64,000 bases of DNA from contig NC_134679.1 in NCBI RefSeq assembly GCF_024713945.1, positions 191,001 to 255,000 of the forward strand, written 5' to 3'. The notes beneath the pieces are model-generated. The model saw only the letters and a list, made by a program, of their open reading frames with translations. It was not told the DNA's origin and did not search any database. This document shows, piece by piece, positions 11,264 to 59,700 of the stretch. Both the position numbers and the translations under genes were made by a program. Every line of letters starts with the position of its first letter. The stretch's first letter is position 1. The DNA is from Dermatophagoides farinae. Its lineage: Eukaryota; Arthropoda; Arachnida; Sarcoptiformes; Pyroglyphidae.

Positions 11264-12784
11264 TCATATTGATAATTTGATATCAATGGATGGTTTGAAT
11301 ACATGTAATTCATTGTTTGCCGATACCGATGCTATCAATTGATTATGTGGATGCCAACTAAAATCCTGTATAATATCCGTATGTCCACCATGAATAAATA
11401 TCATTTCAGGCGGACCTTCCTGGGCAGCTTGAATCGATTGTGGTGCATTGATTTTGGTCATATCCCATATTATCAACCGTTTATCACGGCTACTTGATGC
11501 AAATACTGTTTCACCATATGGTGACCAATTAACATCAAGTACTTCATCACGATGTGCATCAAATGAATGTAAACGGTGTTTCAGATTTCGAATATCGAAT
11601 AAACCAACAGTATGATCATCTGATCCGGTTAGTATGACATATTCACAAAATTGATTGAATGACAAAGAATTCACACCTTCATTATGGACACGGCTACAAA
11701 AAGCTGCTTTGATTTCGCCATTCATACGAGAATCCCAAAATTTCAACATTTTATCATTGCCGACCGATCCTAGATATGATTCGTGGTAATAATGCCATTT
11801 AACATCATTAACACTTCCATGTGCTTTAAATGAGTGAACCGGTGTCAAGGTTTTCGATTTCGATGGATTCGAATTAATATCCCAGATACAGATTTTTTCA
11901 TCTTGTGATCCAGTGGCCAGAATATTACTTTTCCTGGTGTTCCAACACAGACCATAACCTTCTTGTTGATGATGATCTAAAATTAATTCTGGTTTAAATT
12001 CTTTACTAGCAGGTTCAGATGGATGTTTAGAATAATCGAAAATATAATTTTTGGCCGAAGAAGATGATGTAGCAATAATGAATGAATTTTGCGGATTATA
12101 ACGAGCTCGATTGATATCACCATCATGAATGATACGGACATAATTTTCAAGTTTAGCATATTTAGTATGTGAAACACCACCTTCACAAGCAGCAATTTGA
12201 TTACGATCAATAATCGGTGTGTGTTGTGTAGCGACAATCAAATGATTTTGATTATTTTCATCCACATGAGTACCGAACAATAATTTATCTGTTGAGTATT
12301 CGCGATTATTGTATGGATTGGTTTTCGTTTGTTTCGAATGACACCATTGAACGGTAATCGACGGCCATTCCAAACGATTTGTAATGATTAAATCATATAA
12401 AAATTGGCAATTCTTTTTCCAAATACGATAACGTTCGAGATCAAATTCATCAATCATTGGCAGCACATCGTCATCTTGTTCATTACTTTCGGGATTATTC
12501 TCATCTTTTACTTCGATTTTAACACGACCATCAACAATTTGATCAATTACATCGGGCATATATGATGATTTCAATTCAGAATTATCACAATCTTCGTCTT
12601 GGTTGTCATCGGATTCATCATCGCCATCACAATTATCATCATAGTCGTCGTCATCATAATCATCGCTCTCGTTCATCGAGCTTTCTTCATCATCATCTTC
12701 ATCACATTGTTCATCTGATCCGACGGATTTATCTGGATCATAATCTGAATCATCACTGGAATCAGATTTATTATCGATTTCCAT
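11264..12784 (-). CDS. RBBP4/RBBP7/Caf1-55-type WD40 protein with acidic N-terminal extension, 506 aa
   Basis: Intronless frame from ATG 12784. Residues 1 to about 110 are an Asp/Glu/Ser-rich head not found in RBBP4/7. From about residue 113 the protein follows the histone-binding WD40 family. The N-terminal helix and first-blade block YRIWKKNCQFLYDLIITNRL-EWPSITVQW matches the RBBP4 stretch YKIWKKNTPFLYDL..-LEWPS. LLFGTHVDENNQNHLIVA matches the LGTHTSDEQNHL region, and the last blade HTDIIQDFSWHPHNQLIASV matches HTAKISDFSWNPNE. Members chaperone H3/H4 in CAF-1, NuRD, PRC2 and Sin3 complexes. Length is 506 aa against about 425. The identity is lower than expected for the very conserved true orthologue, so this is probably a divergent, perhaps retroposed, paralogue (inference). 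It is head-to-head with CLUAP1. Confidence 0.85.
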   Translation of the reverse strand: MEIDNKSDSSDDSDYDPDKSVGSDEQCDEDDDEESSMNESDDYDDDDYDDNCDGDDESDDNQDEDCDNSELKSSYMPDVIDQIVDGRVKIEVKDENNPESNEQDDDVLPMIDEFDLERYRIWKKNCQFLYDLIITNRLEWPSITVQWCHSKQTKTNPYNNREYSTDKLLFGTHVDENNQNHLIVATQHTPIIDRNQIAACEGGVSHTKYAKLENYVRIIHDGDINRARYNPQNSFIIATSSSSAKNYIFDYSKHPSEPASKEFKPELILDHHQQEGYGLCWNTRKSNILATGSQDEKICIWDINSNPSKSKTLTPVHSFKAHGSVNDVKWHYYHESYLGSVGNDKMLKFWDSRMNGEIKAAFCSRVHNEGVNSLSFNQFCEYVILTGSDDHTVGLFDIRNLKHRLHSFDAHRDEVLDVNWSPYGETVFASSSRDKRLIIWDMTKINAPQSIQAAQEGPPEMIFIHGGHTDIIQDFSWHPHNQLIASVSANNELHVFKPSIDIKLSI

Positions 12785-12864
12785 TTTTTTTTATAAAATA
12801 AAAATCAAATTCAATTGTCGAATCACAAAAACAAACAATAAAACAAATGACTCGTCGTCAAAGT

Positions 12865-17157: not shown

Positions 17158-18468
17158 TTATGCTGGTGGATTTTCAGCTAGTTCTTTGATTCGTTGATAA
17201 GCTGCTTCAACGGCAGCTGCGAATCCGGATGCACAATCAGCTTTGTCCAAAACATGAAGACCATAAATAGCCGGTCCACTTGGCGATGTACAAGCATCAC
17301 GAAGATCATTGGGATTTTTTCCCGATTCAATTATCGATGCAGCAGCCGATTGTAATGTTCGTGCAGCAATTTTTGTAGCCAAATGTTTGGGCAATCCTTT
17401 TTTGAATGCACCATCAGCGACGGCAGCCATAAAATAATAACAAAATGTTGATCCATAACCACCAGCTGCACAGGCAATATCCATATGATTTTCTCCGATC
17501 GTTTCCAAGCGACTGATTCGACAAAGAATATTACGAATAATTCCGGCACAATGTTTTGAATCAGGTTCAACATCGATGGCACCAATGCCCAGGCCATATG
17601 CTACGCCATGATTCAACATTATTCGATGCATTTCAACACGATATTTTTCCGGATGATCCGGATTCAACAATGTTCGTTTAATATCGTTCAATGGAATGCC
17701 ACCAACCAACGACAATATGTACAACGGATGTCGTTGATTCGGTATGAAATTCGTTGTCAATGCTAACGGGCGAATGCCACCACTTTTGTAACATTGTCGT
17801 ATTACATAACCATGTACAGCAAGAAATACAATATCACAATCCATGCGTCCAAATATATCATACGATCTTTTCGTAACATAACATCCTAGCCGTTTGTAAT
17901 TGTCATGATTTTTACCACTTTTTGATGCCACAAAAATTTGCTTCGGATTAATACGTTCGCTACCATCAGCGGGTGCCACTTCAAGTAAACCTTTGACAAT
18001 AACTTCAGTCATTTTACCGGCACCAATAAATCCAATTCGTACATTTTTCTCTGTAACCTTTTCTCCTTTACGACGACGACGCATAACTGGACCACGACTT
18101 GCAGTGGTTTTTTGTTCAGTTGATGTTTTCGATGAAGTTTCTTCTGTTTGTGATCTTTGATCCGATTCTTCACCATCATCTCTTTGACTTTCATTGCCAT
18201 CAATAGATTTTTCTGACTGTTGAGTTTCAACTTGATCAGCTTTTTCAGATTCAACATCACTTTGTGGTTGTTCCACTGAAGAAGGCGATTCTTCCGGTTG
18301 ACCTGTAGGTGATTGTGATGATGTAGCAGCCGTAGTAGCACTTGCAGCATTTGTTTCATCAACTTTCGATTCAGAAGTTGTATCAGCAACGACAGCGGCT
18401 GATCCACCTTTTGTATCATCAGTATCTTGGAGGGATTTTTCTTTTTCTGATTCACTTTTTTCCGACAT
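17158..18468 (-). CDS. divergent pyrroline-5-carboxylate reductase with disordered N-terminus, 436 aa
   Basis: Single exon from ATG 18468 (MSEKSESEKEK); the frame extends upstream only into a non-ATG stretch. Residues 1 to about 140 are Ser/Thr/Glu/Gln-rich and disordered, ending in RRRRKGEK. From residue 143 the P5CR fold begins: NVRIGFIGAGKM is the NADP-binding Rossmann loop, then CDIVFLAVHGYVI (family: DVLFLAVKPHII). The C-terminal domain has AAVADGAFKKGLPKHLATKI (family: ALADGGVKMGLPRRLA) and SPSGPAIYGLHVLD (family: SPGGATIHALHVLE). P5CR makes proline from P5C. Here the GLSGSGPAY active-site segment reads CAAGGYGSTFCYY and the signature Thr (GGAT) is Ala, so substrate or activity may differ. 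The bare enzyme is usually about 270-320 aa. Proline synthesis is therefore uncertain, while family membership is firm. Confidence 0.8.
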   Translation of the reverse strand: MSEKSESEKEKSLQDTDDTKGGSAAVVADTTSESKVDETNAASATTAATSSQSPTGQPEESPSSVEQPQSDVESEKADQVETQQSEKSIDGNESQRDDGEESDQRSQTEETSSKTSTEQKTTASRGPVMRRRRKGEKVTEKNVRIGFIGAGKMTEVIVKGLLEVAPADGSERINPKQIFVASKSGKNHDNYKRLGCYVTKRSYDIFGRMDCDIVFLAVHGYVIRQCYKSGGIRPLALTTNFIPNQRHPLYILSLVGGIPLNDIKRTLLNPDHPEKYRVEMHRIMLNHGVAYGLGIGAIDVEPDSKHCAGIIRNILCRISRLETIGENHMDIACAAGGYGSTFCYYFMAAVADGAFKKGLPKHLATKIAARTLQSAAASIIESGKNPNDLRDACTSPSGPAIYGLHVLDKADCASGFAAAVEAAYQRIKELAENPPA

Positions 18469-19373
18469 AATTTTTTCACTTATAAAAACCAAACAAATCA
18501 AAAAAATTCGAATTCAATGACAGGAATGTTTCTGCTTTCGTGTGTGTTTGTGGGTTGACAATCAAAAAAGAAAAAATTTCACCACAAAAATCAGAACAAA
18601 ACAAATACAAAAAAAATATTGATTCAGAATTACGATTTCCGTGTGATTTAAATAGAACTACATTCAGAATTCTTGTACTTTTAACATTTTTATTCGAAAA
18701 AAATCAATCAATCAATTAATTAATTGGAAAATAAAAACTAGACCACAAATACAATAATTAGTTTTTTTGAGAAAAAATCAATTTTTTTGTGTTATGTGTG
18801 TGTGTTTGTGCCAGCATTCATGCCAAATAATTTTTCGAAAAAAAAATGAAATTAAATTCAAAATTGAAAAAAATAGTAAACCAATAATTATTCAATTCAA
18901 TAATAATAAACAATCAGAAAAAAGAAAAAAAACATTCGCTGTCTGGCCACCATTCATTACAAAAAAAAAATATTTACATTTAGACAGAAAAAAAATTTGA
19001 TTCATCTCCAACTCATCTCATCCATCTTCATCTGATCCAAATAACTTCAAAAATGAAGAGGAGAAGGTTGCAAACAAAAAAAAACTTATTCTGTAACATT
19101 ATCATTTGTCCACCAATAGATCGGTGGGTGTATGTGTGTGTGGTGAGTATATAACGTGGAAGCGATCGATGATCATGATTAATGAAAATGATGATGATTG
19201 TATCGATGATGATGATAGAGAGATTAGATTACTGAGTATTACTCATTCAATTCTAAATATATCAAAAAGCTATCAGCTGTGTAAATAGGAAAAATCTAAA
19301 AAAAATTATTACAGAAACGACAAGCATAGATGGCGGCAATGAAGAAAATGTATCAAATGTTTCCAATTTTTTT
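18469..19373. other. intergenic, no gene seen
   Basis: 5' flank of the P5CR-like gene and 3' flank of the GSE1-like gene. It holds poly-A/T, (GT)n and (GAT)n tracts only. A weak CTCF-like fragment (ATAGATGGCGGC) starts at about 19327. Confidence 0.5.
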
Positions 19374-22300
19374 TCAATCCAAACATTTAGATAGGCGATC
19401 AATTTCCAATTGAAATAATGTTTTTTCTCTTTCTAATTTTTGCATTGTCATCACGATTTCCTTGAAAAAAATATCGAAATACAACTCATTAGATGATTGC
19501 ACCATCACAATTGAATTTAAAACTTACATTTCGTTTTTCATTTAAACCTGAATATTCTCGATTAATATCATCAATGCGATGTTGTAAGTTCAGAATTTGA
19601 TCACGAATATTTAGCTTATCTGGAGGCGTTATTGTTGTCGTTGCTGCAGATGTTGCAGGAACTATTTAAAAATGATGTTAATTAGAATTTGGTTTGAATT
19701 TCAACAAAAAACAGTCAATTTTTACCTTTGATCGAAGTGATGACAGTTGCAGGCGTTGCCGTGATAGTCGATATTAATCCATTACGATCAATCAATAATT
19801 GTGGTTGTTGTTGTGGATTGGATGTACTGTTGTTCATGACAGGCCTTAAATGATGTTGATCACTATAGATAATGGCGGCATGTTGTGCGTTCGATGTTGT
19901 TGCTGCTGTTGTTGTTGTCAACATTAATGGATAGTGATGCATGGAATCAGAATTGATAATATTTACAATTGATCCATTAGTTTGAAGCTGTTGTTGTTGT
20001 TTGCCATTCATTTGTTTTTGTGTTTCTAACAATACTGATTCATGAAATTTTTGTGCAAATTGTTTGGGATCCAACATTTTATTTGTTGCCGCTGGTATTA
20101 TAGTTGTTGTTTGAGCTGATGGTTGTTGTTGTTGATGATGATTGTCATTGATCACAACAATTGTATTTTGATCATTTTTGGTTGATAACATTTTCGATTG
20201 TTGAAATGTTGAGCTAGATTGTTGTTGTTGTTGTTGTTGTGTTATGATTGTCCTTTGCATTGATGATGAAGACGAAGATGGCGGCCTTATTACTTCGGCG
20301 GGATTACAATCAAATGTCATAATTTGAGTCTCATCATGTTGTTGTTGATCTAGATTATCATTAGATTCGGTCGTAGATTCTTCTTTATAATTGATATAAT
20401 CATCAAGATTTGGAATGACTTTTGTATTGATTCGTTCAATAAGCTTCGAATTATTGTCATTTGATATGGACGATGATATCAAAGATGGGATCCAAGTCTG
20501 AAGAATCTTTTCATCAAGATTTTGATATTGTTTACCCACACAAATAAGTCGACGTTTTCTTCGCATCTGACGATTACGAATAACGGCTAGCCAATTAATT
20601 TCAGTTTTTAATCTATTTTCCATGGTTGGTGGCTTCAACCCAAGTGTTTCGAAAAATTGCATTTTATTTCTATTACTTTTTCGAACACCTTTTGTATGCA
20701 ATCGATCCGAATTAGGATTTATTCTACTTTCACGAAAATATGGCCAACGTTTAAATGTTTCATATTTTGGATCAACTTCCAATATATCATTTTCTTGTTC
20801 ATAAAGCCAATCAACTTTGAATGAAGCATGGGTTAAACGTCTATTCATTTTTGTTTGAATATAATTATCGAGATCATCTTCACGTTTCATACGATGAGTG
20901 GTCAAACCGAGCAATGAGAGAAACTCCATTTTGCCCAAATCTTCGTCATCATTTTCTTTCAAAGGTAATGGTGGCAAAACTTGATCCATAAATTCAACTA
21001 TTGATTCATGATCTTCATCGAAAACGTCAATTAAATCACTGTCTAGCGAACGATTTTCATCAATTTCAGTCAATTCAGCATCGGATAGAGAATTTTCATC
21101 TGTCTCCATCATCATATTCTCTGGTGATTGCTGTTGCTGATTGATTTGTTGTTCAAGTTGTTGAATTTTTTCTTTCAATCGATTTAGTTGTGCTAAACGT
21201 TTTTTACGCAATTGTATCACTTCTAAGTTAACTTTTGATAAATTATTATGGTCAAAATCTTGCACATTTGAATCTTCTTGTTGAATTGATTCTTCCAATT
21301 CTTTTATCTGTGCTTGTGTTCGATCAATACGTCGTTGACAATGTAATTGATGTTGAATATTATTATCATTCAAGTGATTCTTTTTCATAGCCAAACAATT
21401 TGCCATCGCCTGTTGTTGAATATCTTCTGTTTCATTCGGTTCAATTTTTGGTTTCAATGCTTTTGCTTGCTGATGTTTTTGTTGATTATTATTGCTATCA
21501 TTATTATTACTATTATTATTGTTTAATGCATTGAAATGTAATGCAAAACTGTTTGAATTTATTACAGCTTTTGGAAGCTCATAAGCCTGATGATGATGAT
21601 GATGATGATGATTTGAATGTGAATGAATTGAATGTTGACTATCGATTGATGGTTGTTGTTGGTGATGATGATGATTGGAATGATGATGAGATGCCATGCT
21701 ATTATTATTGTTGCTAATAGCCGGCGTTGAATTACGATTATTACCAGCCAATGCAGCAACAGAAGCTAATGTTGTCAAATTTATTGAATTAGATGGATTC
21801 GATCTAGAATCAGGTGGTTGCTGCTGAAGTCTGATAATCAGTAAAAGATAAAAATTCAGATTTAATCAAAACCACAACAACAATGAATACTTACAATTGC
21901 TGTGGATATTGAATTTGGACATATTGTTGACGTGCCATATGTCTCAATACTGTCGTTGCGGTTGTTGTTGTAACATTCATTTGTGATGATTGTGAACTAC
22001 TACTGCCATTATTATTGGTTGTTGTAATTGGTTCACTTGTAGATGTTTCATTTATCATTTCTTGTTTGATTGTAACCGGTGTAGCGGCCATTGCAGCCGC
22101 TACTAATGGTGCCAATGTATGTGATGGATTAAATGATGTCGGTGCCGTTACATTCAAATTATTGTTGTTCGATTGTTGTTGTTGTTGGCTAACGATATTG
22201 TTGTTACCGAAATTACCGGCATTGACAATTATTGCTGCTTTAGGTATCATTTCATTTGAAACAGGAACCGAAATAATTCCTATATAATTTACACAACAGG

Positions 22301-25300
22301 AATAGAATCATCAAAAACAAAATTCCAATACAACTGTACTACTCACCATTGTGATTAAGTGGATTGGCATTGTTAATTTGATATGAAAGTGAAGTGGTTT
22401 GCGCTAGAATCGGAATAATCGTTCGATCGGAATGTGTTGGTCTCTGCAACAAAACATATAGGAAATTCATCATTATAAAAATCAATGATTAAAAATTGTA
22501 AATCACAAACCTTGCTATTTGGCTCATTAATTGACTCATTTTTAATAGCTGTCGTTATCGGCGGTGGTGGTGGTGGTGGTGGTACAGCCATCCAATTATA
22601 TTTTCGCATCTCTAACGGTACTTTCATACGTTCATTTTCGATCCATTGATGTGTTAATGTTTGATAGCAGGTTAAACAAGTGACTACACTTTCACCTTTA
22701 TTTAATTTCAATGAACCTTTATCAGCAACAAATTAGAAAATTAAATTAAAAAATCAGAATCGAATAAAATTATTAATACAAGACTAACCAGGAGGACGTT
22801 TATGATCGCGTAAGAAAGGAAAATCTTTCACTGTAATTGATCGCACAAATTGTCGATAGGTGGTAACACCGCAAACATAGCAGACAAAATTTCGACAATC
22901 ATAATGTCTAGCAGAAAGATCACGATCTTCTGGTTTACTATACAAATGATATGCAATCCATTGAGCCATTAATGAATGATAGCAATAAGTGCAAGCTAAA
23001 TGTGAATTATTATTATTATTATCAATATTATGATTTTTAGACGATAATGATTTTTTGCTGGTGGTATGTATTAAACTTTTCAACATTGGAAAATATGGAT
23101 AGATTCCTAATTCGGCCGATAGGATTACGTTACGTGAAGTTGAGAATATCTGATATGTTTGACCTGTAGCACTATGTTGTGAACAAATCAAACAAGTGCC
23201 TGATAGATGTAGGTGTGGACCACCAATACTGGCCAATAATTCATTCAATAGTTTATTGTAACGCTGATCTTGGCTATTTATCGTTGAGATGATTGAATGA
23301 TTTGGTGTTGTACTCACGGTGGTCAACAAAAGATGTTCGGAAGGATTATTATTCTGAATATGATTAACAGAACCAAGGACTAGTGTCGATGGTTGAGATG
23401 ATGATGATGATGATGACGAATTTGATACAGCAATCTGAATCTTTAATGGACAAGCCGGTTGCCCATTAACTACCTGTGTAATTATGGCCGGTGATGAAGA
23501 TGAGCTTGTTGCTACTGCTGCTGCTGTTGTTGTTGTTGTTACGGCTGCAACAACTGACGAAAACTGAGTCGATGATGATGGTGGACGTTTTGCCGATGAA
23601 GACAATTGATATACACGTTGATTATACGGCACATAACCATTCTCAAAGCCGTCCCATTGAATTTCCAGAATTAAATGACATTGCGCACAAACACGAACAC
23701 GACTATTGACCAATTCATTTGCATCATGTTGTAAAAATGGATAGAATGGTTTCTTTTCAGAATTTTCTTTCGTTTCAACCCAATATTCAGATTTATGTTG
23801 TTTACAAGCAACACATATTTGATTGCCTAGTTCATTTCCATCTGGAACCTTCATCATCGTTGTTGTTGTTGTTGTAGTAGTTGCAGTCGCCATCGATGTT
23901 GTTGTTGTTGATGGCGTGGATGTTGGCTGTATCAGAATCGTTTTTGTCATTGCTGTAATTCATATAAAAAATTTATGATTAAAAAAAATGAATAAAAAAA
24001 CTAATGAAAAGAATCCAAACCATTCAATGAATCATTCGATGAATGATGCATAGATGATGATGATCGATTCGTCGTTGCTTTGCTCGTATGTTGTTGTTGC
24101 GGCTGTTCCAAAGAAGAATGAATACCACTACTACTACTGCTGCTACAGTTATTAAGATTCAATAATGACGGCGTTGAAGAATTGATCGATGAAAAACAAG
24201 AATGACAGAGCAATACACGACCATTATCATGCAACAATTGCAATTGTTTTAAAGAATTTGCCGACGAAGACGTTGTTGTATTCGTTGAATGTAATGGTGA
24301 AGATGATGATGATGATGATGATGATGGTATAAAAGGCAAGAGATTGATTTCTTGAGCACTTTGGACAATCAATTTCTTTTGGATCACATTGCCAGAGGTA
24401 TCGTTTTCGGTTAAAATTGAAAAGGCTATATGTGCTTGTGATGATGATGAAATGGTGTTATTATTGTTGATGGAAGAACCTGATGATAATGATGATGATT
24501 GGGAAGTAGGTGGATTGTTCGATGCAATTAGATCTTTACCGCACATAACACAAAAAAATGTTTTATTGGCAGCAACTAATGAAACAAATGACTGAGATAT
24601 CGGTGGTGTTGGTGTTGATGTTGTAATCAAATGATTATGTTGTTGATTATGAGGATGATGATTAATATTTGTTGAATTTCTGGTACTTAAAACAACTTCT
24701 GATAGATTGTGCTGTTTATTACGAATTAATTGATATTTTCGCTCCAATATTGGTTTGTTGGATTTTTGATAAGAATCCCATTGTACTATTAATTGGTGAT
24801 GACAAGATTCACAAACACCTAGTGATAGAAAAAAAACCATCATTAATTAATTATATTTAATTAAATTAAATAGACAACAAAAAATTACCAATTTTTCCAT
24901 TTGAATCAATTATAGTAGGTATTTTAATATCTTGAGTCAATGATGGAAAATATGGACAATTACCCATTGGACGTAATAGAATTGAATATAATTCAGTACA
25001 TTGTTCATGACAAAGTGTACAGCTATATAAAGGTTTTTTGGCCATCATTAACGTTGATGAATGATTATTATTCGATGATAAATTTAATGTTGAAACAACA
25101 GGATTGGCAGATACTTTAATCAGATTAGTCATTGATGAATTTAATGAATATGGACTAATTGCAATGATGTTATCACCTATACCGCCACCACTGCTTGATG
25201 ATGAACTTGTACGTGGTCGATGGCCAGTCAATACTGTCGATTTATTCAATGTTCCAGACATTGTTGTTGTATCAACAGCCATTGTCAACATTGATGGATT

Positions 25301-26059
25301 GATGTTATTCGAATCAATTTTCATTGTTGTCGATGATGATGAATTTGAATTCACACCGGTCATACTAAGATCAAGTACTTCATCCTGTAAACACGGTGTT
25401 CTTGTTGAAGTATCTTTTGCAGCTGATTTTTGTTGTTGTACATTGATTAAATTACCATTATTATTATTATCGTTTGTCGAAAGACTAATTGGATGAGCTA
25501 ATATCCTTGTTGCAGTTGGTGTTGTTACACCTGCGATCGATACAATCGATGATTTATTCGAATGTTTTTGTTGTTGTTGTTGTTGTTGGTGATGATTATT
25601 ATTATCAGCCATAATCATCAAGTTTGATTTAATAATTTTCATCTTTGGTACATTATATAAACGATTTTTGATTGGGATATTTTTCAATTCAAATTCGTTC
25701 CATTGTTCTAATAATAAATCTGAACAACGTAAACAACAAGGTACCGTTATAGCGGATGTTTGTGTTAATGTTTCTAATATTGGAAAAAATGGATCTTTCG
25801 AACCAATCGAAGGACGAACAGCTAACATTCGATATGGAATCGATGATAATTCCTGTTGTTGTTGTTGTTGTTCATGATTCTGTTGTTGAGATAATTGTAA
25901 TTGTTCATCACAAACAGAACATTTACTATTAATCATTATTGATGATCGATTATCGATAGATGATGTGCATGTGTCATTATTATTTGTTGCAATGGTTGTA
26001 ATGAATGCCGTAGCAGCTGATGATGATGTCGATGATAATGAACTAGGAAGAATATTCAT
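19374..26059 (-). CDS. GSE1: GSE1-like chromatin corepressor protein with six Cys-pair modules, about 2048 aa
   Basis: Nine exons: 24889-26059, 24021-24818, 22789-23952, 22511-22716, 22347-22443, 21895-22279, 19726-21830, 19528-19661, 19374-19460. All phases agree, giving 6147 nt; introns are 63-72 bp. The donor at 24020 (GTTTGG) is the only weak one. The C-terminal half is GSE1: KMEFLSLLGLTTHRMKR (about 1574; human KLNFLSLFGLTTH), NKMQFFETLGL (about 1662; human EKKKFLTIFNL), QFAQKFHESVLLETQK (about 1864; human FAHQFHESVLQSTQK). The tail coiled coil KLNIRDQILNLQHRIDDINR and MQKLEREKTLFQLEIDRLSK-CLD matches the human end (SERERLQAELDHLRKCL). The N-terminal half has six modules of CxxC, a FPFL/YFP motif, CxxC and L..QW, at about residues 47-137, 347-421, 480-605, 703-771, 910-1010 and 1014-1081. 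Human GSE1 belongs to CoREST/HDAC complexes. The modules are not part of human GSE1 as I know it. The rest is Gln, Asn, Ser and Thr runs. Confidence 0.85.
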
Positions 26060-28591: not shown

Positions 28592-30099
28592 TCACTTAGT
28601 AACGGCATGAATTCCTTTACCAACCCATTCAACATTCGATGATGATAACCCCGCAACGCTAATTCGTCCATCCATTGTTAGATAAACACTGAATTCTTTG
28701 GTCAAACGTTCACATTGTGATTTATCCATACCGGTGAAACAAAACATTCCAATCTGTTCGGTTATATGTTGCCAATTTCGTGTCGATCCTTCTGATTCGA
28801 TTACATTACGTAACTTTGCACGCATCATTATAATACGTTGTGCCATCTCTTTAACATCCTTTAACCATTGTGTTCGTAATGATGAATCATTAAGAATCAT
28901 TGATGCAATACGTGCCCCGTGCAACGGTGGATTCGAATACATTGGACGAATTATAATCTTGATTTGTGACATAATACGACTAGCCTCTTCTTGTGATGAA
29001 CCAACAACGGTGAATGCACCGATTCTTTCCCCATAAAGACCCATATTTTTAGCAAACGATTGTGAAAGACAAACACGATGGCCATCCTGAATGAATAAAC
29101 GTAATGCTGATGCATCACGATCAATATCACCAGTAGCAAAACCTTGATATGCCATATCGAAAAATGGAAACAGGTTTCGTTGTTTGATCAAATTGGACAT
29201 TTCTTTCCATTGGTCAAGCTAAATAAAACAATTATTATTATTACATCAATGAATGATTATCAAATTCATGTCTGACATACTTTTGGATCAACACCGGTAG
29301 GATTATGTGCACATGCATGTAATAAAATGACTGATTTTTCCGGTATCTTTGCAATATCTTGTAGTGCACCTGGAAAATCAAATCCACACGTTTTTGGATC
29401 ATAATATCGATATTGTTTAATATTGAAATTGGCACGTTTAAATAATGGTATATGATTGCCCCATGTAGGTGTTGGCATATAAACATCTTTTGGACCTTGA
29501 TGAAAGTCACGAAGAAAACAGGCGCCAATCGTTAATGACCCAGTACCGGATATTCCTTGAACTGTTGCATTCTAATTGTGAAATTTTACAAATTGGATTC
29601 TCAATTAACCGATTATTGTATAAATATAATGTCACTTACTAATTTCTCAGTGATTACAGGACTTTTATCACCGAATGCCAATTTGGCAGCAGATGCTGTG
29701 AAATCTGGGAGACCAGATATCGGTAAATATTCTTTATCCAAATTCAATTCACTCAATTTTTCTTCGGCTTTTATAACACTAGGTAATACATGTGGTTTAC
29801 CAAGATCATTACGATAGGCACCGACACCAAGATTAACTTTTTTCGGATTTGTATCACGTTTGTATGCTTCAGTAATGCCAAGAATAGCATCCGGTGGACC
29901 CATTTCAACGTGTGACCACCATGAACTTTACATGCAACAAAATTAAAAAATTTCAATTAGTTCCAGAAACAATTCGAATGAATGAATCATAATAATACTT
30001 GGATCGTCGACACAGATGTAATGTCGATGGTGATAATTGATGACATGGTGATAATATGGTTGATGGATGAATCAGACAACGAATTGGTGAGGAAAACAT
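28592..30099 (-). CDS. GOT2: aspartate aminotransferase, mitochondrial, 434 aa
   Basis: Four exons: 29999-30099, 29640-29925, 29281-29571, 28592-29218, with phases 2, 0 and 0 and GT-AG borders. The first exon gives a presequence, [14 protein letters not shown] and on, rich in Ser, His and Arg with no acidic residue. The mature start [20 protein letters not shown] matches GOT2 ([21 protein letters not shown]), followed by [20 protein letters not shown]. The catalytic region has [23 protein letters not shown] and [19 protein letters not shown]; Lys283 is the PLP-binding lysine. Length is 434 aa (human 430). It interconverts aspartate/2-oxoglutarate and oxaloacetate/glutamate as part of the malate-aspartate shuttle in the matrix. 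All key residues I can check are present. The start is fixed by the only ATG that gives a presequence in phase. Confidence 0.95.
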
Positions 30100-41304: not shown

Positions 41305-41401
41305 CGTGGTTGATCGTTTTCTTTCACCCCTCTGGCTAATTGTTTTATTTTTTCATTTGTTTATTATTGAAAAAATATTATCTTAAATATTTGTGTTTGT
41401 C

Positions 41402-44400
41402 ATGACAAAGCCATCGTCAACCAGCGGTAATGACATGGACGCAACCATGAAGAAATTTATGGAAATGTTCATATCTATGAATTCTTCACGATCATCATCC
41501 GAGTCCAACATGGGACTGGAAACGTATGCATTCAGTCAAGTGACCAAATATGATGGTGCCAATATTAAAGAGTGGTCATCCTCGGTACAATCAGCGTTCC
41601 AAACATGTGGTAAGGAACATTTTCTTAAAAATGAACTTCCGACTGGCCATCCCGAATACTCTCTTTATCAGAGGTACTTTGGATTAATGAAATTTACATT
41701 TCAACCAAAGGTTCGGGATCATGTTGAACATCTGAAAACGGTGTTTCAACTATGGGATTATATGACTCGTTTCGAGAAAGATAATCGGGCTACAGCGGTA
41801 AGAAAATATATAAAGCTGGTTGGTACAAAGTATGAAGGTGGCGAACTTCGTCTTTGGCTTGAACAATTGACAGCTCGTTTTGAAGATGTCGAATCGGAGT
41901 GGCTACAAAACACTGAGAATTCTCGGTGCACCATCATCATCAGTATGTTACCACGACCAAAGTTCGAACGTCTGGCAGACAGACTGACGTCCAGAGATTC
42001 GTTGACAATGAAGGACATAATGAACGCATTCATCGAGGAGGACGAAAAAATGAAAACTGTTTCATCGAAACATGTGAGTAATCAGTCTGTCAATGCCATG
42101 AAGAAAAAATTCAACAAGAAATCATCTTCGTCATCAAAACGTAACGATGTGAAGTGTGATTACTGCAAAAGAAATGGTCATACTACTGATGATTGTCATA
42201 AACGTTTCTGGGATGAACATCATAAATCATCCACATCATCGTCATCCAGCCAATCAAATTCGAAACCATCGACATCATCATCTTCTGCATCATCAAAGTC
42301 ATCAAATGCCGCATCTACCAGCAAACATTCGGCTAAGTCCGTTATTCTTAAAAATGTTTGTAACACAAAAAGTGATTCATGGATCCTGGATTCAGGATCG
42401 ACAACACATGTGACATTCAACGAATCGGTGCTGGTTAACGCCAAGTCCAAACGGTGTGAGTTTGAGGCCGCTGGCGGAGAACCAATTATCTCAACAAAAA
42501 CTGGTGATACTGTGATTCATCCAAATGACAATGAACTTATGCTAAAAAATGTTGCATGTGGTGATTTTAATGCAAACTTGATATCTGTGTCTCAACTTAT
42601 GAGTGACGGTTATTCTGTGTTTTTTGATGGCCAATCGCCAGATAAAACAGCTTTCATCATCAAAAACCATGACATTAACATTGTGAATCCTATTGTGTCT
42701 GCTAATCAATCATCAGGTGTGTGGCTTCTTAAAAATCAACGCAAACAAACATGTTACAATCTGTGGCATTATCGTCTAGGCCATTGCGGCAAAAATATTC
42801 TAAATCAAATCGCCAAACAATCATCATGTGTTAAAATTGATAATGACAACTGTGATGCGTGTCTGAAAAATAAATCTGTGTCTGTGCCACATAAACAACC
42901 AATGATCTATGATGATGTGAACATTTTTGAATTTCTTCATGTTGACTTGTGGGAAAGCCCAGTGTTATCAGCGGGTGGAAGTAAATATGGTTTACTTGTG
43001 GTTGATCATCGTACACGTTTCTGTTTCGGTATTTCAATTCCGTCTAAATCTGATGCAACTGAAGCGTTAATTAATTTTATCACTGATCATCAACGTCGAT
43101 ACAAGAAAAATGGACGAAAAGTATGTTATATCAGATCTGATTGTGGTAAAGAGTTCGTCAATCATCAAATGGAAGAATTTTGCTCAGAAAATGGCATCAA
43201 TCATCAAACTACTGTTGGCTACGCGCCACAGCAAAATGGAATCGTAGAAAGAATGAATAGAACTGTTTTTGGTACTGTTCGTACTCTTCTAAATTCAGCC
43301 AACATGGACCACAAATATTGGGCTGAAGCTATGTCTACTGCTATTTATCTGATAAACATTTGGGTTCGTGATTCTGGCTCATCTCCATTTGAATTGTTTT
43401 TCGGTCATAAACCATCCTACGGTCATTTGCATACGTTTGGATGTGTTGCTTATCATCATCAACCAAAACAAAAACGAACATCGAAACTCGATCCAACTTC
43501 AACAAAATTGGTATTCATCGGATATACAAATTCAAAAGTGAATTATCGTCTTCTTGATCCATCTGATGATAAAATAGTGATTACAAATGATGTGAAATTT
43601 TGTGAGAATGAGATGTATTTTAAATGTGACTCATCATCATCATCTAATGTCGATCAATCAACATCATCTTCATCTTCTTTTATCAATCCAAGATTTTTAC
43701 ATGATAACAGTTTAACAAGTGATAGTGATAGTGATAGTGATAGTGTTATTGACAATACTCATGATTCATCTACAGTTTCGATACCAGCTTCATTTTCACC
43801 ATCATCTTCGTCAACACAAAACGATAACGGATCAACAAGTATTTTTTCTGATGTTGAAACACCATCTATCGATGATATTTCTGCGACTACAGATTCAGAA
43901 TCAGTAGATCATCATATTTTACCACGTCGATCAAATCGAGAGAACAGGGGAGTTCCCCCGAACAGATTTGGTTACAAATGCGTGAATTCATATATCATAC
44001 CATCAACCTACGATGAAGCTCTAAAATTACCAGATTCGAAACAATGGCTGGATGCTATAAATTGTGAAATTAATCAGTTGCAAAAATATTCTGTATTCAA
44101 AAAAGTGCCATTTGATAAATCCAAGAAGGTGATACCAACGAAATGGATCTTTACTAGAAAACGAACTGGTGCATACAAAGCAAGGCTTGTTGCTTGTGGT
44201 TATCGACAGATGTATGGTATTGATTACATGGAAACAGCTTCACCAACACCTGATCGATCTTTGACAAACATATTGCTGGCATGGGCCAAAACATTTAATC
44301 ATAAAGTACGACAATTAGATGTACGAACGGCATTTTTAAATGCTGAATTATCTGAACCAGTTTATGTTCGTCCACCATCCGGTTTTGATAACAATGGTTT

Positions 44401-45469
44401 GCTGAAACTTGAAAAAGCTTTGTATGGTCTAAAGCAGAGTCCGTTGGCATGGTATAAAACCATATCAAATTATTTGTTGTCAATTGGCTTTGAGAAATGT
44501 GTTACCGATAAATGTCTATTCAAAAAAGGTGACGTCATTCTGTTGCTTTATGTTGATGATATCATCATGGTTGGTCCTAATGAATCTATGCTAAATTCGA
44601 TCATCAATGAATTGGAAAATAAATTTGAAATCACTGATATTGGCAACATCGGTGACTATCTTGGAATTACTATCAAGGAATTTCCTGATAGGTTTGAATT
44701 GAATCAATCTAGTTATATCAACAAGGTGCTAGAAGAATTTAATATGGTGGATTGCAAACCATCTAAAGTTCCAATGTCTTTTCTTTATGAAACCATTGAG
44801 GATGAAGAAATTGACATGAATCTTCCCGTGCAGAAATTAATTGGGTGTCTTCTTTATATTGCCAATAGAACCAGACCTGACATTTGTTTCTCTGTCAACT
44901 GGCTTTCTCGATTTATGACGAAACCAACAGCCTCGTTGTTTAAAGCTTGCAAGAATATTTTACGTTATTTATCATCTACGATTAATAAAAATCTTGTTAT
45001 CGGGTCGTTGGATTCAACACTGACCGTATACACTGATGCCAGCTTTGGTCAAGGTGTTTCTAAACGTTCAACTTCTGGTGTAATCGTCCGTTGTGGGATG
45101 TCGACTCTAACTTGGAGATGTTGTCGCCAATCGAAATTATCTACATCGAGTTGTGAGGCGGAATCCAGAGCTTTATTGGATGGGCATAACATCATGAAAC
45201 CAATACGTGAAATTTTGGACTTTATGAGTTATATGACTAATGTTATTTTCCGTTGTGATAACAAGTCTGCCATTCAAATTTTTACTGGAAGCACGATGAA
45301 GAGATCCAGACATTTTGACATAGAAATCAAAAAGCTCGTGGAGATTTTTTCAGATGATCCTTCTATGTCTGTCGATTTTGTTTCTACTGATATTCAATTA
45401 GCAGATGGGTTAACTAAACCCTTTAGCAAAAATAATTTATGTATTTTCTTTGATTCTTTGTTTTTATGA
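41402..45469 (+). CDS. Copia gag-pol polyprotein, 1355 aa
   Basis: One continuous frame from ATG 41402. Parts in order: a gag region with a UBN2-like fold and a CCHC knuckle (CDYCKRNGHTTDDC, near residue 252); an aspartic protease (WILDSGSTTHVT); the GAG-pre-integrase and HHCC zinc region (HYRLGH ... CDACLKNK); an integrase core with its DDE residues (FLHVDLWES, IRSDCGKEF and the Glu near GIVERMNRT); a reverse transcriptase with the LLYVDDIIMV catalytic box; and RNase H (VYTDASFG ... ADGLTKPF). All sit in one frame, as in Drosophila copia. It looks whole. Confidence 0.95.
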   Translation: MTKPSSTSGNDMDATMKKFMEMFISMNSSRSSSESNMGLETYAFSQVTKYDGANIKEWSSSVQSAFQTCGKEHFLKNELPTGHPEYSLYQRYFGLMKFTFQPKVRDHVEHLKTVFQLWDYMTRFEKDNRATAVRKYIKLVGTKYEGGELRLWLEQLTARFEDVESEWLQNTENSRCTIIISMLPRPKFERLADRLTSRDSLTMKDIMNAFIEEDEKMKTVSSKHVSNQSVNAMKKKFNKKSSSSSKRNDVKCDYCKRNGHTTDDCHKRFWDEHHKSSTSSSSSQSNSKPSTSSSSASSKSSNAASTSKHSAKSVILKNVCNTKSDSWILDSGSTTHVTFNESVLVNAKSKRCEFEAAGGEPIISTKTGDTVIHPNDNELMLKNVACGDFNANLISVSQLMSDGYSVFFDGQSPDKTAFIIKNHDINIVNPIVSANQSSGVWLLKNQRKQTCYNLWHYRLGHCGKNILNQIAKQSSCVKIDNDNCDACLKNKSVSVPHKQPMIYDDVNIFEFLHVDLWESPVLSAGGSKYGLLVVDHRTRFCFGISIPSKSDATEALINFITDHQRRYKKNGRKVCYIRSDCGKEFVNHQMEEFCSENGINHQTTVGYAPQQNGIVERMNRTVFGTVRTLLNSANMDHKYWAEAMSTAIYLINIWVRDSGSSPFELFFGHKPSYGHLHTFGCVAYHHQPKQKRTSKLDPTSTKLVFIGYTNSKVNYRLLDPSDDKIVITNDVKFCENEMYFKCDSSSSSNVDQSTSSSSSFINPRFLHDNSLTSDSDSDSDSVIDNTHDSSTVSIPASFSPSSSSTQNDNGSTSIFSDVETPSIDDISATTDSESVDHHILPRRSNRENRGVPPNRFGYKCVNSYIIPSTYDEALKLPDSKQWLDAINCEINQLQKYSVFKKVPFDKSKKVIPTKWIFTRKRTGAYKARLVACGYRQMYGIDYMETASPTPDRSLTNILLAWAKTFNHKVRQLDVRTAFLNAELSEPVYVRPPSGFDNNGLLKLEKALYGLKQSPLAWYKTISNYLLSIGFEKCVTDKCLFKKGDVILLLYVDDIIMVGPNESMLNSIINELENKFEITDIGNIGDYLGITIKEFPDRFELNQSSYINKVLEEFNMVDCKPSKVPMSFLYETIEDEEIDMNLPVQKLIGCLLYIANRTRPDICFSVNWLSRFMTKPTASLFKACKNILRYLSSTINKNLVIGSLDSTLTVYTDASFGQGVSKRSTSGVIVRCGMSTLTWRCCRQSKLSTSSCEAESRALLDGHNIMKPIREILDFMSYMTNVIFRCDNKSAIQIFTGSTMKRSRHFDIEIKKLVEIFSDDPSMSVDFVSTDIQLADGLTKPFSKNNLCIFFDSLFL

Positions 45470-53768: not shown

Positions 53769-56700
53769 TCATGTATTTTCATTATGATTTGATGAACAAT
53801 AATATCGTTTATGTGCCAAATATGAATTACGGTATGTAAATGAAATATTACATGCACTACAATATTTACTATCTATATCATTATTATTATTATTGGTCAG
53901 CGTCGTAGTCGTTGTTGCTGTGTTACCTGTTGTTGTAATTGCATTGGATAATGGACTTTTAGCAGCAGTGGATGATGCTGATTGATTAAGTTTTTGTTTT
54001 GAATCTATTTTCATTGATACATTATTATTGGTCGATGTAGATGATGGTGGTGGCGATGATGATGACGATGACGATGATGAATAATCAATTGCTGACGATG
54101 TAGCAATACAACCATTCATTAATTTATTTGGTGTAGGTGATTTGGATGATTTACCTGGTATGGTGTTAATCATATCGGTTGTTTGTTCGGTACCAATTGA
54201 TGATAAATCACCATCACCACCACCAATAAAATCAACACCCATTAATACATCTATAGCTTCTTTTACTAGTTGTTGTTGATGTTGTTGTTGTTGTATCGAT
54301 GAAGCTAACGATGTACCATTGATTTCTTTATGTACCAATTTAATATGTCTAATAACATTTCCTTTATAATTCGATGTATATGGACAGAATTGACAATTAT
54401 GATTCTGGATTTGCTGTTGTTGTAAAGCTGATTGTGATGAGGATTGTTGTGATGGTGGTTGATTTTGACTATTTTCACTAATCAATGGTGACACGCTTGA
54501 TGTTTTCCTTAATTGTGATTGTTGTTGTTTTTGCTGTGGTTGATGTTGTTGTTCACCAATAGCTTGTTGTTGATGCTGTTGTTCTTTAGTTCTTCGAGCT
54601 GCTGATTCAAGATAATTGGAAACAGTACTACGAATAACACTATCGAATGTTTCATTGCTTGAAAGTGATGCATTCGAATGACATGATAATAATTGTGCAT
54701 CAATATTATTACTACGACGTCGTTGCCGAGAAGGATTCGTCAGAGAATTTCCATGACTTGATCTGCGACCAACTGATGGTTCAGGTAGATCAGTATTCTG
54801 TACAATAAAATCTTCTTCAAATGCACCGGTCGTTGCTAATTCTTCCGTATGGACCCGTACATGAGTACGCATTCCACGCATTGTGTGTCCTTTGTAGCCA
54901 CATATAGTACATTTATATGTTTGCAACGAAGATGTCGATGGTGTTGTATTGGCTGGTTTTTCCGGTTTCTGTTCCAAACGCAAATCAGCACTACAAACAT
55001 GTGCAGCCAACGTTTCGGGACTAACATAGGATGCTTTACATTTATGACAATTATAATCACCAACAATTAAACCATTGTTGGTCATTGAAGCACCGGTTTT
55101 GGCTCCAACAACAGCCGCAGCAGTAACTAATGCATTCCATTGTTGAGATAAGGATGTTGGAGAGGTAAAATCCAATAGTGCTTCCGCTGCCGAAGTAGTT
55201 GGTGTTGCAGCAGCTCCAAGCGATGCGGCTGCAGCCAATAATTGTGGAGTTAATAATGATTGTGGTGTTGGAACAGAAACAGATGGAACTGGTGAAGTTG
55301 GCAATGGACTTACAACGGTTGCCGGTGATATGGGTGCCGCATTTATGACAGCAGCCGTAGCAGCAGAAGCTGCAACTGCTGCTGCGGCTGTTGATCCATT
55401 ATTATTACGTTTCAAACAATAATAAGTTTGATGGGCATAAAGATTGTCATATGAAGTGTATTTGATACCACAGGCAGCACAAAAATATTGAAAGACAGCC
55501 GATTGTTTATTTGGCGAAAGCAATGCAGCAGCAGCGGCCGGACTAACCGAAGCAGCTTCACGTGATGATAGCATCGATGGTGATGTTGATAATGAAAGTG
55601 TTTCATCAGGATTCAAACTGGATGTTTTCAGCGATGATGGTCCAATCAGTTCGGTGGGCACGTGCAAATTCGATGCGAATTTCGTAGAAGGTGTATAGGA
55701 TAATGATGAAGAATTGGATAATGCCGACGATGGACGATTGTTTGTCGGGATAATACTGTTGACACCGGAATTACGTGAATCATTCGGACTAATAGATCGA
55801 TTAATCGATGATGAATCATGATTTCTTCTTGAAGCACAATACAGTTTTTTATGTACAAGATAACTTTCGTGTTTGTAGAAAACAATATTACATTCATTAC
55901 AACGTGAATTACCTTGTTTCACAACGACATCAACATGTGGTGATGAAAAATCGGTCGATTGCTGTATTGTTGGATTATTATTCGGATTTGGAATCGATGT
56001 TTTTGCAACGTTTTGATTCGAACCGGCATTTGAACCAGTCAATGCAGCCATAGCCATAGCTAAATATTGAGCAAGTGCTGGATTGTCACAGGAGGTTAAT
56101 GCAGCTGCTAATTGATTTGATTGATGGCCACCGGTGAACAATTGTGATGCCAATTGTGAAGAATCTGATGCTGATGAAGGTACAAGATTTGCATTTGCAT
56201 GTGGTGCAGCGCCAACCACAGAATTCATCGATTGCATCATTGCAAATTTCTGTAACAAATTGTTCATGTGTTCTTGGAATGTTTGCTGTTGCTGATCCTT
56301 ATTAGTTAACGACGATATTGATTCTTCACAATTTTCATTTTCCATTTCTTTTTTCACTGGAGAATCATCAGTGTTTATAATCATCATACTGTCCTGATTA
56401 ACCGATTCTGATTTCGAACGTTTTGTTACAGGTGAACCACTAGACGACAGATCTAATGGTTGATCAGGATTCGATTCTGAATGGGAACGTTTATCTAATT
56501 TTTTTCGAGAAAAGAAAACATATTAGAATTTGAATTAATAAAGAATGTTTGTCTTACTGATATTGGGATGATGATGAGATTTTTCACTAGCAGTGCATTT
56601 TTTTGTTGATGAAAAATTTGTTGATTTTAGATTAACAGATTTACGCATTTCATCAAATGTTGTTATAAATGGTTGCATTGATGATGATGATGATGATGAT

Positions 56701-59700
56701 GAAGGATCAAGACCAAGAGGAAACATTAATGATGATCTGGATGATGGAGCCAACAGTTTAAGATTTTCCACAATTGAAACATCTAGATTGGCAGCTAAAC
56801 TTGGTAATGGTTCAAATGAATTGGTAACATTGTTGAAAGAAAATGGTATTAGAACCAAAGGATTTGCTGAGAGTACAATATAAATTGGTGTTGTATTATG
56901 AATGGATTCATTAATTTGTTGAGCCATTCCATTAATCGGTACAATTGTTGATGATGATGATGTACCACCGGGCAATAGGCCAGGAAATAGTGAACGAAAG
57001 TCCGTATATTTATTACATTCATCCATAACAATATCATTCGCGGATTCATTAGGATTATTATCTTGTAAATCATTTGGCAAGATACGTGGTGGTTTACGTG
57101 TTGATATTGAATTCGATGATGAATTTGGTGATGATGATGAAAATGATGATGGTGGTGGTGATGAACCAATACCGGATGATGTTTGTGAATTGGCCAATGA
57201 TGATGATTTACTACTAGTATTACTACCACACGTCATGTTGTTCTGTTGTTGTTGTTGTTGTTGTTGATTATTCTGATTGTTGTTATTATTATTATTAGAG
57301 TTTAATTGATTAACAATCGATGGTGATATTGTTGTTGTAATGGTCGATGATAGTGATGATGAAGATGATGACGATGACGATGAATTGATTTGTTGTTGTT
57401 GTGAATGTGTCAAGTGTCTTGTTGAACAATATAATTCTTTATGAACCTAAAGTGACAAAGTAAAAATGAAAGACGAAAAAAAATAGAAAAATTATTTTTC
57501 TGTTTTTCTGGATGAAAAATTCGGAAATTAATCGATTTATATAAACAATAAAAAAAAATATAATCATCATCATCATCGTCATCATCATCATATCATGTCA
57601 AATTCATATGTCCGCAAAAGGAAATTTGAAAAAGAAAAAACACAACACAACAAATAAACAAACAACACAAATAATCACATTTGTTGCACATTTTTTTTCA
57701 TTCATAAAAGATAAATAAATTGAATGATGATGACAGCGACGATTATTTAAATTTTATATACCTAAAAATGGATTGATAATTGATGATTTGTCGACAAAAC
57801 TGTATGTCTATATCATTGGGATTTTTTTCCTTTCATTTTCTATCAAATTTTGTCTGTCAATGTTATACTGTATATACACTGAGAGATCGATATCAATGAT
57901 CGCTATCGATTTTCGTCATTATTTTGAAAAAAATTCATTGAAAGAAATTATTATTAATTATCTGGCTTTTATAATCTAACGATTGATGATTATTTTTTCA
58001 ACAGGGGTATATCATTTGATGATGATGACAATGACATTGGCGCAATTATTATCACCATAATCCTCATCATCATGGCTAAGAAAAGAAGTACATCAAAGAT
58101 GATAAATCATATTGAAAAACATAATCGGCAAATAAAGAAGAAAAAGAGAAAAAAAAATCATTTGTAAATGATGGCCATTTGGGATAATATCATCATCGGA
58201 TCATCAAATTTTCCATATTTATAAATATTCCAAATTTGGTCTATTAATTGAAAATTGGAAAAAAAACAACATTCATCATCATGAGTGTATTAATTTATCA
58301 ATCATCATTATTATAATTATTTGGATAAATGGATGAAAAAAAGAGAAAATAAATCCAAATAAGATAAATCCCATCAATATAAAAGATGATTGTATCAGAT
58401 ATAGAGTGAAAAAATGGATAAAAACAGTCACCACAATCCACAATAACAATAACAAGTTTTCAATTGATCATCATTTATAAACAAAAAAAAAATATTCAAA
58501 TTCCGGTTCAGCAAAATATTTACCACATTCGATTGAATCAAACTGTTTAAAGTCTCATTTTTGGTCAAATACAACAAATGATCAATCATTTAGAGAAACA
58601 AAAATGCAAGATTTGAGTTAGGTGTTGGCCAATTATTTATTTTAAATAATGGTGTGATTTATCAATGTAAATCAATCAATCAATCTTCATTATCATCATT
58701 AATAAATCATATCTAATATCTAATAATATAAAATAAAAGGTCGAAGATCAAGACATATATAAATAATCATCAGCCATTCAATATGAATGAACGATTGATA
58801 TTTATATGTCAGATGATTGTGGTCATGTGACATAATGTATTTTTTTCTCGCTATAGGATAAAAAAAAATTGTCGACAAAAATATAATTAGGTTTTTTTTT
58901 TCACTATGGTTATCATTATCATTATCATCAAAATTCAAATCAATCAATTGATCGATCAATCAAATTTTGATGATGATGATAACATCTTCAATACTTTTTT
59001 TATAAAAAAAAGACAATTTTTTGCTTGCAATGTTGTCGTTGTTGTTGTTGATAAAAATGATGATATATCGTATACAAAAAAACACCATAGACAGATTATT
59101 AACCCTAGATGTGTATTTTAGTTTGCGCGCGAGTTTATAACCAAAAATAAAAACATTGATTAATTGTCTGTTTGTTTGTTTGATTGATTGATTGATCACG
59201 GCTGATTTTTCGTTTTCATTTGTAATCGATAAATTTTCTTTTCTGATGGGGATAATTATAATGGTGTGGATCATCATTTCAATTAGAAAAATGGATCAAA
59301 TCATTATTCCAAAGGGCTGGATCGATTGTGCTTTTTTTTTATTATGATTATCATGGCTGTGGTCTGATTATGAGAGTTGTGTTTGTGTGTGTGTGTGTGT
59401 TTTGGGGTTGATCGAAGCGATTGATTATTTTTTTAGACTTTATCGATCCTATCGATCGAATGAAAATGATGAGATATGATATTAATATTGTGAATGCAAA
59501 CGTTGGCGGCCACATGATCGACCGAAAATTGTCAAACGAGAGAAAAAACGACCAAATGATGATGAATATCAAAAAACGAACGAAAAAATAAAAAAAAATT
59601 ATCTTTCATCGATCCGATCATTATCATTCTCATCATCGTCAAGTTGACCACGCATAATATCGCGTGCTACATATAATGATGATGATGGTATTGAAATATG

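Follow-up and report, generated by a model that had tools for sequence, protein, structure and literature searches.

Gene content and organization of the locus

The window analyzed here, a stretch of 64,000 nucleotides from Dermatophagoides farinae with a GC content of 31.9%, carries on its minus strand a gene whose predicted product joins a long N-terminal array of cysteine-pair modules to a GSE1-like core (Table 1). Splicing nine exons in phase, as an earlier note on this DNA had proposed, indeed yields an open frame of 2048 residues that runs from 26059 to 19374 without an internal stop. The eight introns are short (64, 64, 67, 67, 67, 68, 70, and 72 nt) and poorer in GC than the exons that precede them (0.16–0.28 vs 0.32–0.38), and all follow the GT-AG rule, the donors of introns 2–4 being of a weaker, GTT form. 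Each junction offers between 4 and 16 in-frame GT-AG pairs at a spacing of 40–200 nt (the chosen pair included), such that the exact exon edges are predictions wherever a junction lacks support from a module; introns 1 and 3 do have such support, because modules 2 and 6 are complete only when spliced across them.

The gene is flanked on the same strand by a pyrroline-5-carboxylate reductase gene (17161–18513, P5CR_dimer E 3.3e-24) and by an aminotransferase class I/II gene (28595–29218, E 7.5e-43). Further along the minus strand, 11267–12790 encodes a protein with an acidic head, an RBBP4/CAF1C-type N-terminus (CAF1C_H4-bd E 4.4e-21), and WD40 repeats, that is, a histone-binding-type WD40 protein ~7 kb from the corepressor gene. 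A single frame of 1360 residues on the plus strand (41387–45466) has the domains of a copia-type retrotransposon polyprotein (gag_pre-integrs, rve, and RVT_2, the last at E 4e-61), and a 917-residue frame on the minus strand (53772–56522) combines C2H2 fingers with a ZFPM2-like CCHC finger (E 2.5e-6, 27.7 bits against a cut-off of 27), possibly marking a GATA cofactor of the FOG/u-shaped type.

Table 1. Predicted exons, modules, and core elements of the GSE1-like gene (window coordinates; residue numbers refer to the spliced product; E-values of modules are those of the held-out profile test).
Feature	Position	Strand	Detail
Coding chain, exons 1–3	26059–24889, 24818–24021, 23952–22789	-	open through all junctions
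Coding chain, exons 4–6	22716–22511, 22443–22347, 22279–21895	-	open through all junctions
Coding chain, exons 7–9 (including stop)	21830–19726, 19661–19528, 19460–19374	-	open through all junctions
Module 1, residues 41–140, CxxC 47 and 109, all in exon 1	25640..25939	-	E 7.6e-9; model pLDDT 72.4
Module 2, first half (at the end of exon 1), with CxxC 347	24890..25039	-	E 2.3e-11 (spliced module)
Module 2, second half (at the start of exon 2), with CxxC 393 and QW	24724..24818	-	E 2.3e-11 (spliced module)
Module 3, degenerate, CxxC 480 and 595, serine-rich insert, no QW, exon 2	24196..24552	-	second-half shuffle test
Module 4, CxxC 703 and 745, exon 3	23597..23824	-	E 4.6e-11; model pLDDT 70.9
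Module 5, CxxC 910 and 977, exon 3	22898..23215	-	E 9.4e-10; weak zf-AD match
Module 6, first half, CxxC 1014, abuts module 5, end of exon 3	22790..22897	-	E 5.9e-9 (spliced module)
Module 6, second half (at the start of exon 4), with CxxC 1058 and QW	22586..22716	-	E 5.9e-9 (spliced module)
DUF3736-matching part of GSE1-like core, KMEFLSLLGLTT	20834..21046	-	Pfam PF12540 E 0.0023, 18.4 bits
Core, second QFF..LGL segment with basic RRKRR tail	20522..20674	-	resembles first segment
FAQKFHESVLLETQK motif	20000..20071	-	putative likeness to vertebrate GSE1; no Pfam match
C-terminal stretch, probable coiled coil, exons 8–9	19374..19620	-	coiled-coil families among best Pfam matches

The N-terminal array holds five true repeats and a probable decayed copy

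Residues 1–1100 contain twelve CxxC motifs, where 10,000 shuffles of this segment average 0.9 and never exceed 6, and every one of the twelve sits at exactly the residue that the earlier note had given. Long linkers rich in Ser, Asn, and Gln separate most of the modules that these motifs define. The offset from first to second CxxC is 62, 46, 42, 67, and 44 residues in modules 1, 2, 4, 5, and 6, respectively, and 115 in module 3. The former five can be aligned, their invariant columns being C, C, P, L, C, C, L, Q, W, P, R, and Y; the QW pair is, as the note had said, missing from copy 3. The modules differ in charge, with calculated pI values spread from 5.7 to 9.3 (modules 1 and 4 acidic at 5.7–5.9; modules 2, 5, and 6 basic at 8.7–9.3).

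To score each copy independently of itself, we left it out and searched it with a profile built from the other four, alongside 1000 shuffles per test. All five held-out copies are recovered at E-values of 7.6e-9 or lower (Table 1), the best shuffle reaching 0.12 for module 1, 0.04 for module 2, 0.017 for module 4, 0.18 for module 5, and 0.014 for module 6; modules 1, 2, 4, 5, and 6 are true repeats. Testing the two halves of each module separately localizes the signal. When the cysteines are held fixed during shuffling, the second halves of modules 2, 4, 5, and 6 are equaled by none of 2000 shuffles and that of module 1 by 5 of 2000; no first half, on the other hand, stands clearly above its shuffles (237 to 679 of 2000 score as well). 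The first halves being without significant signal beyond their Cys pair, the repeat signal is that of the FP.L element plus the second half, CxxC...QW...P...R.Y.

Copy 3 (480/595) behaves differently: taken as an entire module it ranks no higher than its own shuffles against the held-out profile, whereas with its second half alone only 27 of 2000 shuffles that keep the cysteines in place score as well. Copy 3 is thus probably a module that has decayed, and the “six copies” first described are better given as five clear repeats with a degenerate, marginal third.

Phase-1 introns and the proposed growth of the array

Two modules are interrupted between their CxxC halves by phase-1 introns, again as previously noted: module 2 by intron 1 and module 6 by intron 3. 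Exons 2 (24021–24818) and 3 (22789–23952) are both 1-1 symmetric, and either or both can be skipped without a shift of frame. Direct joining of exon 1 to exon 4 fuses the first half of module 2 in frame to the second half of module 6, and this hybrid scores 34.3 bits against a profile of the other three copies, a value that lies between those of module 6 (31.6 bits) and module 2 (40.1 bits) by the same measure; skipping of exon 2 alone leaves a broken copy of 3.4 bits. The two introns occupy different columns of the module alignment, so that the hybrid demonstrates compatibility rather than proving a unit of duplication. We envisage that the array would have grown by duplication, and that the phase-1 introns in copies 2 and 6 would allow exons 2–3 to be lost with an intact hybrid copy left behind.

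Comparison of the module with domain libraries and known folds

The suggestion that the module might be an undescribed domain is consistent with the libraries searched (Pfam, NCBIfam, PADLOC, and PDB sequences), none of which gives a convincing match. No Pfam family reaches its cut-off with any of the six copies at E up to 10, or with exons 1–6 at E up to 0.1; NCBIfam has nothing above cut-off for the five copies, PADLOC (which shows no cut-off) no match below E 0.029 for the same five, and PDB sequences no match below E 0.017 to modules 5–6 or to the five-copy profile. The stray sub-threshold matches in these searches are to cytochromes, Cas8, IS91 transposase, and zf-AD, and zf-AD, below its cut-off, is the nearest known domain in these comparisons. 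Within the window itself, a six-frame scan with the five-copy HMM covered the 1475 frames between stops that are 25 residues or longer; the best match outside the gene's own exons (57310–57441, E 0.062) is taken as chance. No relatives of the exon 3 stretch were confirmed in prokaryote and virus contig collections, nor of exon 7 in a viral contig collection, results that are uninformative on animals.

AlphaFold2 models of copies 4 and 1, built from an input alignment of the three in-exon copies, are of low confidence (mean pLDDT 70.9 and 72.4). Both suggest the same order of elements—CxxC, strand, short FFP helix, strand, second CxxC, long helix—with the FFP helix amounting to three residues only in the copy 4 model and the copy 1 model placing an additional low-confidence helix after the first CxxC. 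The long helix at the second pair spans residues 51–65 in copy 4 and 71–87 in copy 1 of models whose overall pLDDT is about 71–72. Foldseek returned no significant structural match for either, although zinc folds figure prominently among the matches listed. Among the matches to copy 1, all at E >1, HNH proteins (which we take to belong to the treble-clef class) are the commonest named kind, with 2 of 6 PDB matches and 20 of the best 50 (of 51) viral matches in BFVD. The copy 4 matches, at E above 6, comprise PHD-like or ZZ zinc domains in 5 of 10 PDB cases and an HNH name in none. Against a likeness to HNH and other treble-clef folds, no score is significant and no HNH match accompanies the copy 4 model; HNH families were likewise unmatched by the modules in Pfam at E up to 10. 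With its paired cysteines, the module looks like a putative zinc-held docking unit.

The GSE1-like core and C-terminus

Beyond the array, the region around EFLSLLGLTT resembles DUF3736 (PF12540), presumably the family of GSE1 (genetic suppressor element 1). The match covers profile positions 24–91 of 142 and, at 18.4 bits, lies below the Pfam cut-off of 22.6 bits, the respect in which this core departs from GSE1. The fusion to a GSE1 core put forward in the earlier note stands as to the open frame, which does join the modules to a GSE1-like core, and is less certain as to the naming of that core, given the shortfall in bits. With a 192-residue segment of the core as query, Pfam lists DUF3736 and no other family at E up to 10; with the entire exon 7 it is weaker (E 0.026, 15.0 bits) and is equaled by an unrelated ATP-synthase family (0.025). 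A search of PDB by sequence with the core gave only one stray, at E 4.9.

Two (E/Q)F...LGL segments lie in the core (20522–21046); a two-sequence BLAST aligns them over 30 columns at 30% identity (E 0.001), a hint that the GSE1 core underwent an ancient internal duplication. The second segment matches no Pfam family by itself. When the core was joined with its linker partly removed it scored 22.0 bits against DUF3736, and 24.3 bits once the second segment had been scrambled by hand; as the scrambled version scores no worse, the second segment adds nothing specific for DUF3736.

The C-terminal stretch has six Pfam matches, none at cut-off, which include Rab11-FIP3 (E 0.001) and ZapB (E 0.0058), both of which we take to be coiled-coil families. 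This putative coiled coil and the FHESVL motif are, we presume, marks that resemble vertebrate GSE1. Vertebrate GSE1 is not known to carry an N-terminal C4 array.

Mammalian GSE1 is described in several papers as a member of the CoREST/HDAC1 complex (PMC10681733, PMC8763317, PMC13015706, PMC9884267); it is also placed stably with LSD1/CoREST in mammalian cells (PMC8763317) or termed a BRAF-HDAC subunit (PMC5352222). An annotated “genetic suppressor element 1-like” protein of the shrimp Litopenaeus vannamei receives a passing mention in one report (PMC8266392). That mention aside, the titles listed in a literature search of freely accessible main texts include none on invertebrate GSE1, and the same search gave no paper for DUF3736 or for orthologs or homologs of GSE1.

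A putative C4 docking array on a proposed corepressor scaffold

We read the gene as encoding a GSE1-type corepressor scaffold, linked to CoREST/HDAC, with an N-terminal array of putative C4 zinc docking modules, an interpretation that we place just on the probable side of even. For it speak the repeat statistics, the rejoining of split modules only through introns 1 and 3, the order of main elements common to both models, the zinc folds among the Foldseek matches, the DUF3736 match to the core segment, the CoREST/HDAC1 membership of mammalian GSE1, the in-frame hybrid, and the unlike charges of the copies; against it count the sub-cut-off score of DUF3736 and the non-significant Foldseek results for both models. 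A C4 (CxxC...CxxC) treble-clef zinc-binding module would be repeated within the N-terminal ~1100 residues, with five copies working and one decayed. Each copy would fold separately, from the first CxxC through a strand, an aromatic F/Y-F-P helix turn, and a second strand to the second CxxC, which would cap a long helix bearing the QW face. The most likely role of the modules would be in self-association or in protein docking, by which chromatin partners or transcription factors would reach the CoREST/LSD1/HDAC machinery; the coiled coil and the core at the C-terminus would keep that machinery in place. The repeat, the open frame, the intron positions, and the absence of any above-threshold named domain from the searched libraries are shown; zinc, fold, docking role, and CoREST link are all four things that we infer, the fold from low-confidence models.

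Several other readings bear on the modules. ZAD (zf-AD, PF07776; e.g., Grauzone, 1pzw), an arthropod C4 dimerization domain, is described as having two Cys pairs ~50 residues apart with a long helix running from the second pair (PMC5509000). The modules share the spacing of the pairs, and their low-confidence models predict such a helix; on this reading they would be strongly diverged ZADs on a corepressor. The exon 3 search lends this some weight, and takes a little from the docking-array reading, zf-AD being the sole Pfam family at E up to 0.1 (E 0.02, 15.6 bits against the 28 needed) and its match spanning module 5 from the first CxxC to past the second; module 5 alone gives E 0.083 and 13.6 bits. 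Yet the 28-bit cut-off is unreached, only one of six copies matched zf-AD on its own, and the profile–profile (hhalign) score against four PDB ZADs is also reached by column permutations, by 111 of 200 when the cysteines stay fixed and by 37 of 200 when they do not. Module and ZAD HMMs fail to find one another in both directions (E 1.1 or worse), whereas the four solved ZADs recover each other at E 1.4e-5 to 0.0099; those four lack the FFP and QW signature when aligned, and no ZAD figures among the Foldseek matches (10 for copy 4, 6 for copy 1). The organization differs too, in that five module copies share one protein here, and in that ZAD sits N-terminal to C2H2 fingers, of which exons 1–7 and the C-terminus, scanned singly or as segments, gave no match. 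By sub-cut-off bits and by the permutation and cross-HMM controls, the modules were not placed in the ZAD family by sequence, and we judge a diverged ZAD unlikely. Slightly less likely again is that the modules are zinc fingers that read DNA or histones and not units for protein docking: nucleic acid or histone tails are common ligands of treble-clef folds and modules 2, 5, and 6 are basic, but modules 1 and 4 are acidic, the invariant positions besides Cys, Pro, and one Arg (L, Q, W, L, Y) are not basic, and the variation in charge between copies (pI 5.7–9.3) argues against one common DNA-binding surface. A multihaem cytochrome with CxxCH haem sites, finally, was prompted by a sub-threshold match of module 2 to Cytochrome_C7 (E 0.0084, 16.4 bits, cut-off 24.8) and by a weak PDB sequence match to the multihaem protein 4qo5 (E 0.48); His follows CxxC in only 3 of the 12 motifs, grounds on which we rejected it as exceedingly improbable, and the remainder of the protein looks nuclear.

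The join between array and core invites a different objection, namely that two neighboring genes have been misjoined, a module gene (exons 1–4, reading through past the exon 4 donor to a stop) and a GSE1 gene (exons 5–9). The exon 4 frame does run on into the intron up to 22375, the introns 2–4 donors are GTT and not GTA or GTG, and a minus-strand ATTAAA at 21866 (inside intron 6) could be a late poly(A) signal. Set against these, introns 4 and 5 (67 nt each) are in line with the remaining introns, exons 5 and 6 carry an open frame that agrees in phase with their neighbors on either side, and after a signal at 22546, inside exon 4, no AATAAA or ATTAAA recurs on the minus strand until 21866; two genes seem to us quite improbable. 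That exon 4 continues into the core is a prediction from frame, intron size, and the poly(A)-signal gap at 22546–21866.

Returning to the corepressor scaffold with its docking array, a broader and decidedly more tentative proposal, which we hold to be rather doubtful, is that the modules belong to an unnamed putative zinc-domain family in GSE1 corepressors, tandem-expanded here into a multivalent docking array, with introns that would enable module gain, loss, and alternative splicing with intact hybrids left over, and with copy number tuning the reach of the CoREST/HDAC scaffold. Similar units may be present in the GSE1 proteins of other arthropods, and the significance of the present array would be smaller if those proteins carry the same ones. 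The intron pattern in copies 2 and 6 opens array growth and splicing to direct testing, and the module, if our reading of it is true, would add an unnamed domain to the catalogue. Pfam covers GSE1 only as a domain of unknown function, DUF3736; a repeated, probably metal-bound module in a GSE1 orthologue would, if true, provide a handle on what GSE1 recruits.
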